Part shown: piece by piece, positions 10,241-34,475 of the stretch
How the letters are laid out: each line of letters opens with the position of its first letter
Position numbering within the stretch: the stretch's first letter is position 1
Source: Fibrobacterota bacterium
Lineage (GTDB): Bacteria; Fibrobacterota; Chitinivibrionia; Chitinivibrionales; FEN-1185
DNA: 35,684 nt
NCBI GenBank assembly: GCA_003165595.1
Contig: PLWQ01000030.1
Coordinates: forward strand, 1-35,684
Direction of reading: 5' to 3'
Notes under the pieces: model-generated
Told to the model about the DNA's origin: nothing
The model's input: only the letters and a program-made list of their open reading frames with translations
The model's database searches: none
Program-made: the position numbers and the translations under genes

Positions 10241-12660
10241 AAACCCCGTTTCTCTACTTTGACTGGCTCCAGAAAGACAACCCCAGCGGCGCGGTTGAGC
10301 GGCTGCCGGCGCTTGCCGGCCGGTTCGAAACGTCCGTGCCGGGCCTGTATTGCATCGGCGACCTTACCGGCGTCCCTCTTATCAAGCTTGCCGCGGAATC
10401 GGGAAGCCGCTTTATGGAGCAATTGTCCTCCGACGAAGCGTTCGCGGCGGAGCGGAAAGGGAAAGCCGGGGACTTCTACGACCTGATCGTCATCGGCGCC
10501 GGGCCTGCCGGCGTTTCGGCGGGCGTGCGGGCCCTGGAACTGAATTACAAGCATCTGATTATCGAGTCGTCGCGTGCGTTCAACACCATTAACAACTTTC
10601 CGGCGGGCAAGCCTATCTATGTAACGCCGGCCGGCCCGGTGCAATCGCCGCTTGCGTTTACCGACGGTTCCAAGGAAACGCTCATTGCCCAGTTACAAGC
10701 GGGCAAGGACGCGCACGACATCCAGCTTCACGAAGGCGAAATGGTCAAAAGCATCGCCGGGAGCTCGGGCAGTTTCTTTGTGGAAACGTCGGCGGCGACG
10801 TATCGGGCGCTCAGGGTGGTGATTGCAATCGGCACAACAGGGGCAACCCGGAGGCTCGGCGTTGCGGGTGAGAATCTTCCAAAAGTGTTCTCACGCCTCA
10901 TCGATCCGGGTCTGTATCACGACCAGGATATACTTGTTGTGGGCGGCGGCGACAGCGCCCTCGAGGCCGCGGTCGCGCTTGCAAAGAGCGGCAACCGAGT
11001 GACTCTATCGTATCGCAAGGCAGCTTTGGGCAGGCCCAAAGAACGCACCCTTAGGAACTTTAACGAGCTGGTACGGGCAGGCGCCGTAACGCCCCTGTTC
11101 GAATCGCGGGTGAAGGAGATTCGCGAAACCGACGTGTTGCTTTCTACAAAGCGCGGCGACACCGCTCTTTCCAACGCGGTTGTTTTTGTTTTGATCGGCT
11201 CCGAGCCGCCCATAGAGTTTCTCAAAAAGGCGGGAGTACGGCTGCACGGCCAATTCTCCTTGCCGGACAAAGTCGGGCTGGCCGCATTCCTGTTTTTCGC
11301 GATGATGCTTTACTTTGGGAAAAAGGCCCCGGTCGCGGCGGTATCGGGCTTTGGCGATTTCGTGCGATTGCCGCTCTTGCTATCCGGCCTGGCGTGGCCG
11401 CAGCAAATAGACGGCCTGGCGGCGTGGCTCGGGTTTGTATGCTTCGCAATAACCGGGCTCGCGCTCGCGGCGTATTCCGTGAGGAAGATCAAACGGAATG
11501 CCCGGGGCGTTTGGCATGATTTCAAGCTCGGTTACTATGCCGCGATTTCGGTTCTTGTCTGTTACCTTTACATAGCGTACAAACTGCTCGGGCAGCGGCC
11601 GCTGCTTTCCGACATGGGCGACTGGTATGCCGCGCTGTACTCCCTTACCATTGTGATCTTCGGGTTCCGGCGCATGTATGTGAGGCGCACCGGGTACATC
11701 GCGAGGCAAACCCTTGCGCTGATGGCGTTCCAGGTGCTGCCGCTTTTTGTTCTGCCGCTGCTGGCGCTTCCCTTCATGGGGTCGCATCACCTGCTGCCGG
11801 CCCGGGTCATGGAAACGGTCTTTCCGGACCAGTCCTACTGGCGCGCATTCGGATTTGTTTTGGCATGGCCGCTCTTCATTTACAATGCGGCAACGGGTTC
11901 TCCCGCGCTGTTCTGGCTGGTTTTGGGAATTGTCCAGACCTTTGTAATAGTTCCGTTCATAGTGTACAAATGGGGCAAAGGCGCGTATTGCGGCTGGGTG
12001 TGCCCGTGCGGGGCAATGGCCGAAACCCTCGGCGACGAGTATCGGACGCGCGCGCTGCACGGCCCGGCTGCCAAGAAGGCGGAGAATTGGGGACAAGCGG
12101 TTCTGTGGTTTGCGGCGCTGGTCACGCTGGCGAGCCTTGCCGCAGGGACCGGCAGCCGCGGTTCAAACAACGCGCTTGAGGTATATGGCATCATCATTGA
12201 TGTCGTGCTTGCCGGCGTGATAGGCCTGGGCGTCTATTTCCATTTCTCGGGCCGCGTCTGGTGCAGGTTTTTTTGTCCGCTTGCCGCCCTCATGCATATC
12301 TACGCCCGTTTCTCGCCGTATCGCATCATGGCAAACAAGAAGCGCTGCATCTCGTGCAACATCTGCACAAAGGTTTGTCACATGGGAATAGACGTGATGA
12401 ACTTTGCAAACAAGGGCATTCCCATGAACGACGTGCAATGCGTTCGCTGCAGCGCGTGCGTGGTGAATTGCCCGTTGCAGGTGCTCACGTTCGGCGCCGT
12501 GGGATCGACCGATTTGGAAAACAAGAAGTACAAGAATACCGGTTTCCCTCTGGCGCGGGGCTGGCAAAGCGGGCTCTTGCAAAAGGACATCGACATGCTG
12601 GTTGCGGAAGAAGAAACCCCACCGGCCGACCCCTTAAGGAGGCCGGCCCGGGCATTGTAG
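10237..12660 (+). CDS. FAD/NAD(P) oxidoreductase fused to a NapH/CcoG-like membrane polyferredoxin
   Basis: An 807-residue fusion, coupled to the preceding gene by an ATGA overlap at 10237. Residues 82-100 hold the FAD Rossmann motif VIGAGPAG (87-92). ILVVGGGDSALEAAVALAKSG (about 228-248) is the NAD(P) site, as in thioredoxin-reductase/YpdA-like enzymes. From about residue 345 come several membrane helices. YCGWVCPCGAMAE (about 585) follows, then CRFFCP, and two ferredoxin-type clusters CISCNICTKVCHMG and CVRCSACVVNCP (about 705-755). An odd feature is the FAD-binding 'GLYCIGDLTG' motif (GD at 41-42): it lies before the GxGxxG site instead of after the NAD domain, a circularly permuted order. 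It probably passes electrons between NAD(P)H, a membrane carrier and the radical SAM or redox partners; the direction is unknown. The last two codons and stop lie in a perfect hairpin shared with the opposite gene. Confidence 0.75.
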   Translation: MKTPFLYFDWLQKDNPSGAVERLPALAGRFETSVPGLYCIGDLTGVPLIKLAAESGSRFMEQLSSDEAFAAERKGKAGDFYDLIVIGAGPAGVSAGVRALELNYKHLIIESSRAFNTINNFPAGKPIYVTPAGPVQSPLAFTDGSKETLIAQLQAGKDAHDIQLHEGEMVKSIAGSSGSFFVETSAATYRALRVVIAIGTTGATRRLGVAGENLPKVFSRLIDPGLYHDQDILVVGGGDSALEAAVALAKSGNRVTLSYRKAALGRPKERTLRNFNELVRAGAVTPLFESRVKEIRETDVLLSTKRGDTALSNAVVFVLIGSEPPIEFLKKAGVRLHGQFSLPDKVGLAAFLFFAMMLYFGKKAPVAAVSGFGDFVRLPLLLSGLAWPQQIDGLAAWLGFVCFAITGLALAAYSVRKIKRNARGVWHDFKLGYYAAISVLVCYLYIAYKLLGQRPLLSDMGDWYAALYSLTIVIFGFRRMYVRRTGYIARQTLALMAFQVLPLFVLPLLALPFMGSHHLLPARVMETVFPDQSYWRAFGFVLAWPLFIYNAATGSPALFWLVLGIVQTFVIVPFIVYKWGKGAYCGWVCPCGAMAETLGDEYRTRALHGPAAKKAENWGQAVLWFAALVTLASLAAGTGSRGSNNALEVYGIIIDVVLAGVIGLGVYFHFSGRVWCRFFCPLAALMHIYARFSPYRIMANKKRCISCNICTKVCHMGIDVMNFANKGIPMNDVQCVRCSACVVNCPLQVLTFGAVGSTDLENKKYKNTGFPLARGWQSGLLQKDIDMLVAEEETPPADPLRRPARAL

Positions 12661-12690
12661 GGGCAGGTTTCGAACCTGCCCCTACAATGC
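12652..12690. terminator. 39-bp perfect hairpin shared by two convergent genes
   Basis: Arms of 18 bp (12652-12669 and 12673-12690) are perfectly complementary around TCG; the centre reads GGGGCAGGTTTCGAACC. Each arm contains GCATTGTAG, so both the plus-strand oxidoreductase and the minus-strand DUF1499 gene end with codons GCA TTG TAG drawn from the element. It probably acts as a bidirectional terminator, although there is no U-tract on either side. The sequence type resembles dispersed palindromes common in uncultured genomes. Confidence 0.7.
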
Positions 12691-13131
12691 CGAATCGAAT
12701 CTTTCCCTGACCGTCTCCATTCTCTTTCTGTTGACTCCCATGTCACCCTTGCCGAGCCGGGAAGCCGATCTGAACTGAATTGTCTTTGCGCTGTCGTCGA
12801 ACGCGAATTCCACATCGTCGACAAACCGCCACAGTTGCGAAGTGAATTCAACATCGAGATAGTCGCCCTTGTCCGAAATGATCCTGGTGCGGGGCAGGGA
12901 ATTGATGACCGTAATGAGCTTTTGCTTTGCCTGATCCATGGTCCCGGTGTAGGACAACGGTTTGGCTGCATGGGTCTTGTCGGTTGCAAAAGTCGATACG
13001 CAATTGGGTGATTCGGGGCATGGCGCGAGCTTGCCGTCGTGCACGCCGAGATTGGACGGGCGCGTGCCGGAGCAGGTGCACAAAACCAGGATAATGCAGC
13101 AGCCCAGAGCTTTTGTAAACGTCTGATGCAT
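12682..13131 (-). CDS. DUF1499 family exported protein
   Basis: A 149-residue protein. The start at 13131 is chosen for AGGAG 6 nt upstream and the following signal peptide (residues 1-20, LGCCIILVLCTCSG; Cys20 may be lipidated, though the lipobox is imperfect). The mature part has the DUF1499 layout: LAPCPESPNCVSTFA near residues 34-48, then a long stretch with GDYLDVEFTSQLWRFVDDVEFAFDD and a terminal GVNRKRMETVRERFDSAL. The usual family pattern 'PnCVsS..' and 'R.GysD.G.NR.R.e.ir' is present. The function of DUF1499 is unknown. It is the last gene of a minus-strand trio, 41 nt after the DUF547 gene, and its stop is inside the shared hairpin. Confidence 0.75.
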   Translation of the reverse strand: MHQTFTKALGCCIILVLCTCSGTRPSNLGVHDGKLAPCPESPNCVSTFATDKTHAAKPLSYTGTMDQAKQKLITVINSLPRTRIISDKGDYLDVEFTSQLWRFVDDVEFAFDDSAKTIQFRSASRLGKGDMGVNRKRMETVRERFDSAL

Positions 13132-20092: not shown

Positions 20093-20105
20093 GCCGGCAA
20101 TAGAG

Positions 20106-20133
20106 GTAGGGGTTTGCCATGGCGAACCCCTAC
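20106..20133. repeat. 28-bp palindrome, copy 1
   Basis: GTAGGGGTTTGCCATGG and its inverse give 14-bp arms with one mismatch, centred on CCATGG. Its relative at 20203-20230 has the same length and outer GTAG/CTAC ends. Confidence 0.65.
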
Positions 20134-20202
20134 CACAAAAATATCCCCGCCAATTGAGATTAATGCCCACCGGCGAAATCGCGAAAAAATATTGGACGGT
20201 AT

Positions 20203-20230
20203 GTAGAGGTTGACCATGGTCAACCCCTAC
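20203..20230. repeat. 28-bp palindrome, copy 2
   Basis: The core GGTTGACCATGGTCAACC is an 18-bp perfect palindrome within GTAG/CTAC ends (one A/C mismatch pair between). It lies 97 bp from copy 1, with differing but paired arms. Confidence 0.65.
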
Positions 20231-27945: not shown

Positions 27946-28134
27946 TCCTTCCAAAGAGGTTGCGTTGCGAAGGGGCGACGCCTCGCGAGCGCCAAGCGAG
28001 CGACTTCGCGCGCCCCTTTGCTGGAAGGGGTGTGCCCCCGGATCGCCGCCGCACCCCTCAAGAATTTGTCGAAAAACCCGGGTGCGGCGGAAGCCGGGGG
28101 CCAGGGGAAACCGCGAAGTGGTTTCCCCACCAAC
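27946..28134 (+). repeat. modular four-stem hairpin element, copy 1 (upstream of rimP)
   Basis: Closing stem CCTTCCA (27947-27953) with TGGAAGG (28022-28028). Inside it, GCGAAGGGGCG (27967-27977) pairs with CGCCCCTTTGC (28011-28021). After GGTGT, GCCCCCGG (28034-28041) pairs with CCGGGGGC (28094-28101), enclosing CCGCCGCACCC (28046-28056) with GGGTGCGGCGG (28080-28090). After CA, GGGGAAACC (28104-28112) pairs with GGTTTCCCC (28120-28128), then ACCAAC. It shares junctions, but not most arm sequences, with 34313-34475. Confidence 0.75.
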
Positions 28135-34039: not shown

Positions 34040-34103
34040 AGTTGCTCTATATTCTTTGCGAAGATCAAGAAGATCGGGCGCCCCGCCGCTTTGCGGCGGC
34101 GGC

Positions 34104-34216
34104 CCTCCCTCCGGACTCGGCCTTCGGCCTCGGTGCCGGATCGTCCCATGCCTAACGGCGGGGTCGACCGGCACTGCGCTCCGGCGCTCCTTTCGGTCCT
34201 GCCTAACGCGTGGGCA
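34104..34216 (+). repeat. GC-rich dispersed repeat, left copy
   Basis: Shared blocks in order: CTCCCT, CTCGGCCTTCGGCCTCGGT, GCGCTCCGGCGC, CTTTC.G...CCTG and CGGTCCTGCCTAACGCG-TGGGCA. The reverse complement of 35514-35656 carries the same blocks in the same order, with longer spacers. CGGCCTTCGGCCTCGG is itself palindromic. Confidence 0.5.
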
Positions 34217-34312
34217 GAAGATGATAGCCACGTTTCAAGTTTCCCTTTTGGTAAGGGTCGTCGGAACGGGAGCTTCTCGCCACTAAGGTGAAGAACTCGA
34301 ATTCGGAGGGTT

Positions 34313-34475
34313 CCATCCACAAAGAAGGCGTTGCGGGAACACGGCACGCGCATTGCGCAAGCAATGCGCGTGCCGTGTTCCCGCTGGATGGGGTGTGCCC
34401 TTTACGTAGAGACGCCATGGCATGGCGTCTCTACGTAAAGGGCCAGGGGAAACCCGTTAGGGTTTCCCCACCAAC
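34313..34475 (+). repeat. modular four-stem hairpin element, copy 2 (upstream of truB)
   Basis: Closing stem CCATCCA (34313-34319) with TGGATGG (34385-34391). Inside it is a perfect 24-bp hairpin (34333-34356 with 34361-34384, loop GCAA). After GGTGT, a perfect 22-bp hairpin follows (34397-34418 with 34422-34443, loop GGC). After CA, GGGGAAACCC (34446-34455) pairs with GGGTTTCCCC (34460-34469), then ACCAAC. It ends 26 nt before the truB start. Junctions match copy 1. Confidence 0.78.

Follow-up and report, generated by a model that had tools for sequence, protein, structure and literature searches.

Among described bacterial repeats, those closest to the element reported here are the PIT, BoxC, and TM_ECO intrastrand triplex repeats, the pneumococcal BOX elements, and the REP, REPIN, and BIME sequences. 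The PIT/BoxC/TM_ECO repeats are intergenic, show no strand bias, sometimes occur as inverted pairs, and have the potential to form a triplex of the purine (reverse-Hoogsteen) motif, in which an antiparallel third strand makes the triplets G·GC, A·AT, and T·AT (PMC4666352). The order third strand-purine-pyrimidine is called "class I" by Holder et al., while TM_ECO, a highly conserved sequence of 37 nt, is class II (pyrimidine-purine-third strand) (PMC4666352). The case for triplex DNA in bacteria has so far been based mainly on sequence potential and on folding in vitro. BOX elements (boxA-boxB-boxC) are modular, intergenic, non-coding, strongly folding, and presumed mobile, with many copies per genome and a varying number of boxB units between boxA and boxC (PMC3049150). 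The REP/REPIN/BIME sequences are extragenic palindromes with mosaic clusters, inverted arrangements, and compensatory changes; REPs are 20-40 bp in length, conserved in sequence, and adjoin a RAYT (PMC3116915).

The window analysed here is a stretch of 35,684 nucleotides from a Fibrobacterota bacterium (assembly GCA_003165595.1, contig PLWQ01000030.1), in which two copies of an element, called family A below, lie on the + strand at 27946-28132 (copy 1) and 34313-34473 (copy 2), with the hairpins and junctions that a first-pass annotation of the sequence had described. By analogy, family A appears to work like a mosaic non-autonomous repeat (BIME, BOX, MITE) and resembles E. coli TM_ECO in placement and triplet rule; however, it lacks, or does not clearly show, the sequence or partner features by which each of the families tested is defined. 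The antiparallel third strand with G.GC and A(T).AT that marks triplex repeats is found in family A as sequence covariation, and the predicted order is that of class I, twice per element. Unlike TM_ECO, family A is a three-hairpin mosaic in which the stem sequences are variable and change together with the third strand. It does not fit the ITxF search rule (three stems of >=6 nt, loops of 1-6 nt), as the X match has 3-4 layers beyond GCG, and the GGAAGGGG/H3 match of about 6 layers has the whole of H2 as its connecting segment. In contrast to BOX, the three modules are fixed in number and the sequence in each is drawn from many unrelated ones; the sequence is also different, and the two are set apart by description. 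Compared with REPs, family A is far larger, its stem sequence is free to vary, its backbone is without GTAG, and no RAYT is associated with it. The H2 hairpin of copy 2 (a GTAGAGACGC...GCGTCTCTAC palindrome) looks like the GTAG-tagged palindromes (PMC3733652), yet it fills one module of a larger element. A covariance-model scan of Rfam gave no match to family A at the gathering threshold, and loosening the threshold brought up only miRNA-like chance matches of the palindromes, all sub-threshold; one scan of viral contigs gave no match, and a literature search for repeats in Fibrobacterota found no papers. No such family was found in Rfam or in the literature searched, in line with the first-pass annotation, whose author did not recognise the element.

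Anatomy and distribution of family A

The plan of the element was drawn from 150 collected copies in eight genomes, gathered via searches and regions of the genomes, and consists of an X strand of 4 nt, GCGTT, hairpin H1, C[T/A]GGAAGGGG, TG[T], hairpin H2, CCA, hairpin H3, and ACCA, with a total length of 160-190 nt. The fixed pieces of the backbone are GCGTT, C[T/A]GGAAGGGGTGTG, CCA, and CCCCACCA; among copies in the genome of the window, similarity stops at the terminal ACCA. Most of these copies have an extra upstream hairpin, H0 (GCCGCGAAGCGGC), which is missing from copies 1 and 2, and copies in the genome G030 have TTTTCTACC in its place. The H2 hairpins are of several mutually unrelated kinds (GATC/GAAG, GACCCCGC/GCGAGGAGG, long multibranched, and GTAG palindrome), with further kinds in G030 (TGAAGACGC, TAAAGACGC, AAAGACCCC, CGAAGACCC, and GGAGACGC), and the H1 and H3 types vary much as H2 does.

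In copy 1, the X strand GGTT (27958-27961) has the mirror partner AAGG at 27970-27973 (T.A, T.A, G.G, G.G). The conserved GCGTT turn from X strand to H1 (27962-27966) is followed by H1 of the "AAGG" type (27967-28021), the GGAAGGGG strand proposed as the third strand of H3 (28023-28030), an H2 of the GATC type with an enlarged apical loop (TG[T]GCC...GGCCA, 28031-28103), H3 (GGGGAAACC...GGTTTCCCC, 28104-28128), and ACCA (28129-28132). Copy 2 lies between an nrnA-like DHH gene and truB, and has the X strand GAAG (34324-34327) with the mirror partner GGAA (34336-34339), the GCGTT turn (34328-34332), an H1 with a perfect 24-bp stem and a 4-nt loop (34333-34384), a GGATGGGG strand as the proposed third strand of H3, with T opposite A of H3 (34386-34393), an H2 replaced by the perfect 23-bp GTAGAGACGC palindrome (34397-34443), H3 (GGGGAAACCC...GGGTTTCCCC, 34446-34469), and ACCA (34470-34473). 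All of these features are on the + strand. Folded as single-stranded DNA, both copies are considerably more stable than their dinucleotide shuffles, with a z of -6.0 for copy 1 and of -16.1 for copy 2.

A covariance model of the 3' half, built from 26 aligned copies, matches copy 1 at 28020-28132 (E 3.7e-13) and copy 2 at 34383-34473 (E 2.4e-8). The search of this genome and its relatives with such a model, which had been proposed at the outset, returned 59 matches in the genome of the window (G000) at E up to 0.01, or about 57 copies once split matches are joined, scattered as intergenic DNA repeats; an exact 14-base junction is present 19 times in the same genome. By the model search, family A is present in 8 of 168 Fibrobacterota genomes, all eight in one order. 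There are at least 25 matches listed for the sister species (G001), 26 scored matches and about 80 pattern matches in G030, which belongs to another family within the order, seven matches in G006, and one to three each in G002, G007, G015, and G035.

Some copies carry additional sequence. Long multibranched inserts with repeated GGAYGYG and GAAG junctions are found in H2 (L008, L014, L017, L019) and H1 (L008, L040), and resemble a further structured module. The H1 of several G030 copies (L058, L211, L216, L236) is interrupted by a common insert of 60-70 nt, TTTGGA..GCTTTTAT..GAGAGGTCCGGC..GGGCCGGGGTGAGGTT. The assemblies have NN at palindrome centres (L013 H2, about 1480; L015 H1, about 1420; L052, L046, and L212), and many G030 contigs stop within an element; the centres of perfect palindromes may be assembly-limited.

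Selected pairing and exchange of hairpins

Hairpin pairing within copies is under selection in the three copy-rich genomes compared, which are that of the window, that of the sister species in the same genus, and G030. Across all three, pairing is 0.89-0.98 within copies vs 0.75-0.83 with swapped arms for H1, 0.73-0.89 vs 0.66-0.70 for H2, and 0.79-0.87 vs 0.76-0.82 for H3; none of 200 swaps reaches the observed pairing, except for H3 in the sister species (2/200). Covariation in the 26 aligned 3' halves is 0.247 vs 0.110 when shuffled, with 0 of 500 shuffles reaching the observed value, and all slid structures are also lower. The observation that the arms of H1 and H2 differ between copies 1 and 2 and pair within each therefore extends beyond the window, with own arms above nearly all swapped combinations, and H3 behaves likewise, less strongly. 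Arms that lose complementarity, or a lack of both further copies and a transcript, had been named as evidence against a selected structure; instead, there are roughly 57 copies, and H1, H2, and H3 are complementary within copies and not between them. Among mismatches in the stems of the + strand, G.T exceeds A.C (154 vs 52; in distinct contexts 72 vs 43, p=0.009), so that the + strand is indicated as the folded one, whether as DNA or as RNA.

The H1, H2, and H3 types reassort almost freely. There are 33 distinct triples in 45 G030 copies, and for the four commonest types 11-13 of the 16 possible combinations are found in that genome. At two orthologous sites with family A in both the genome of the window and the sister species, the X and H1 types differ, and at one of them H2 differs too; modules have been exchanged in place at these two sites. 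The insertion at C32:107701 is the same in both species, because the upstream flank and H0 still align. Family A thus records the exchange of hairpins at orthologous sites, with structure kept while sequence is lost. One of the two possibilities raised by the first-pass annotation, that of a DNA repeat with exchangeable hairpin cassettes maintained by selection for pairing, is supported by the many copies, the 33 triples, and the exchange at orthologous sites.

A covarying 7-bp closing stem, the other prominent claim about the two copies, did not hold up. The 7-bp complement is found only in the window's two copies, and in 39 copies from the same genome the longest stem between the upstream 22 nt and CTGGAAGGGGTG has a mean of 3.62 bp within copies vs 3.67 bp swapped (3.62 vs 3.62 in G030). 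With own equal to swapped, CCTTCCA/TGGAAGG vs CCATCCA/TGGATGG was rejected as a compensatory closing stem. The T-A to A-T change on which the claim was based falls in the GGA[A/T]GGGG strand, at a position that covaries family-wide with H3 by the triplet rule and not with a closing stem.

Covariation by the triplet rule

In a mutual-information scan, the strongest associations beyond Watson-Crick partners are those of the X strand with the 5' strand of H1, in mirror order outward from GCGTT, and of the GGAAGGGG strand with the fifth pair of H3. At the level of sequence, X with H1 and the GGAAGGGG strand with H3 covary according to the purine-motif triplet rule (G·GC, A·AT, T·AT, antiparallel), and this is the part of the analysis that would surprise a specialist. 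Position 2 of the X-H1 match is G·G, A·A, or T·A in 97 of 104 distinct rows and position 3 in 101 of 104, and over positions 1 to 3 the T of X faces A in 69 of 70 cells, although such cell counts overstate independence because the copies are related. Position 1 includes 31 A.G cells that fall outside the DNA rule, and in copy 2 the X rule is obeyed at only two of four positions. Of all the offsets and directions compared, mirror order at offset 0 has the highest z (13.8); a direct reading, without mirroring, at +1 has a z of 9.5, which is a caution. Watson-Crick pairing of X with H1 at offset 0 shows no association (z 1.0). The layers that vary number three or four at H1 and one at H3, and the remainder are constant and uninformative.

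For the GGAAGGGG strand, C7 equals H3a5 in 49 of 59 G030 copies, and shuffling H3 among copies of one H2 type gives 39.4 (0/5000). In the genome of the window and the sister species together, 61 of 72 copies follow the rule at C6, the position before it, compared with 43.8 (0/5000). The register at H3 is shifted by one layer, being at C6 in the window's own genus and at C7 in G030. Because the association survives shuffling within H2 type, it persists though the exchangeable H2 intervenes.

These results bear on whether family A could be an ordinary MITE- or REP-type repeat, with pairing due to homogenisation of palindromes or to terminators, and a mirror association due to block linkage and purine richness. 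REPINs and BOX elements are similarly distributed (PMC3116915, PMC3049150), and X and H1 are adjacent and seemingly exchanged together. However, when H1 types are relabelled with the linkage of X and H1 type kept, the observed score is reached in 0 of 20000 trials (each type pair once) or 13 of 20000 (weighted), the H3 association persists on shuffling within H2 type with H2 lying in between, and the unpaired junctions are constant across genomes from several bacterial families. An ordinary repeat of this kind is considered improbable.

The explanation that accounts best for these patterns, and in which belief is evenly divided, is that family A is a mosaic repeat, non-autonomous and subject to gene conversion, in which selection favours a single-stranded fold whose two stems are in part triple-stranded. 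The fixed backbone X-GCGTT-[H1]-C[T/A]GGAAGGGG-TG[T]-[H2]-CCA-[H3]-ACCA would carry the three hairpin modules, and the + strand would become single-stranded as the lagging-strand template or as an intermediate of transposition or recombination. The two purine-rich strands would then occupy the grooves of H1 and H3 in antiparallel orientation and give short intrastrand triplexes of class I (reverse-Hoogsteen, purine, pyrimidine), and a putative mobilising or recombining enzyme would recognise that fold. As the fold alone would matter, hairpin sequence could vary freely, and modules would be replaced via gene conversion or nested insertion. Further, and more tentatively, selection on the triple-strand contacts may be what is visible as covariation, such that single-stranded DNA folds in vivo into a specific, partly triple-helical tertiary structure needed for spread, with the hairpins as interchangeable cassettes. 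If so, the covariation of third strand and stem would be evolutionary evidence for selected three-stranded contacts.

The main rival, which is regarded as doubtful, is a structured RNA, in which copies would be transcribed, X and GGAAGGGG would take part in base triples as in the D-stem core of tRNA, and the RNA would act in trans or be the mobile form. Isolated RNA triples also include G.GC, A.AU, and U.AU, with similar preferences, and the excess of G.T over A.C on one strand also counts for this reading. The asymmetric internal loops conserved in H2 (GATC/GAAG; GAC/GGC) and the multibranched inserts look RNA-like, and a few copies lie 13-40 nt ahead of a start codon in the same orientation. 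Against this, the copies have no orientation relation to genes, Rfam is without a match, the turnover of sites is high, and purine-motif triple helices have been reported unable to form in RNA (PMC4666352), which would favour DNA. If family A is RNA instead, it would be a structured RNA not described before, containing base triples and present in as many as about 100 copies in one genome.

Genomic placement, turnover, and neighbouring repeats

Family A copies are intergenic, with 3 of 143 overlapping coding sequence, and favour neither orientation with respect to genes, the 3' neighbour being co-oriented in 63 cases and opposed in 67. Where it is opposed, its stop codon is a median of 25 nt from ACCA. 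Copy 1 lies ahead of rimP and copy 2 ahead of truB, each oriented like its gene, and in the sister species the two genes that flank copy 2 adjoin directly with no spacer, as might be expected of an element acting in cis on the adjacent gene as a regulatory leader or terminator, such as a translation-gene leader. The two orientations are, however, about equally frequent, there is presence/absence turnover at orthologous sites, and neighbours are of all functions, including leuA-like, seryl-tRNA synthetase, T6SS, peptidase, and glycosyltransferase genes, so a cis-regulatory role is very improbable. On the orientation counts and the unrelated neighbours, a translation-gene leader was rejected; the link to translation-machinery genes drawn by the first-pass annotation does not extend to the family, and the placement beside such genes is coincidence.

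Compared with the sister species, the truB site has copy 2 and a family-B element vs no spacer, the rimP site has copy 1 vs other elements, the 5' side of serS has family B vs family A, and the site upstream of a gene that may be pyrR-like, judging by the carbamoyltransferase gene next to it, has family A vs families C and B. Presence and absence at orthologous sites is a property of non-autonomous mobile elements, and movement of family A is inferred from this turnover together with its patchy presence. The right end CCCCACCA is sharp, and a GTGGGG-like left end is confined to composite arrays; truB, the one empty site, is too diverged to show a target-site duplication. Several candidate mobilisers were rejected. 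For RAYT/Y1 mobilisation, Y1 transposases occur widely within the order but show no correlation with copy number, and the one strong Y1 match in the genome of the window has no family-A copy within its 3.3 kb locus. Reverse transcriptase was rejected since the sister species, with its 25 or more copies, has no RVT_1 match, and an autonomous parent element between neighbouring copies was rejected since the genes sampled there are housekeeping genes. Among Y1, RVT_1, and these sampled genes, no mobilising enzyme could be tied to family A.

Other repeats were noted as well. Family B has the form GGGCG[hairpin]GGTCGGCCCTCC...GCGTTAGG, is often bounded on one side by TTGACAATTGTGG, and is frequently head to head with family A. 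In the window, a family-B element on the - strand (34076-34218) is head to head with copy 2, in the same stretch inserted relative to the sister species, and others are found at L003, L006, L007, L011, L012, and L029. Upstream of the element at L010 and L017, CCCCTCTCC..GGAGAGGGG sequences resemble the TM_ECO/BoxC triplex motif. The window also has further perfect or near-perfect palindromes of unrelated sequence at 20105-20230 and 12651-12691. Family C, GTGGGGGAAGT..CCCCCTCGCTTCAGCC..GGCGTCTTCCGCTACCCCCTC, is found at L013, L015, L021 (about 250-350 nt upstream of the copy), and L303; on its reverse strand, a G-rich strand and a module are likewise accompanied by a GGGGGA..TCCCCC hairpin that ends in CCAC, and family C may share the third-strand plan.
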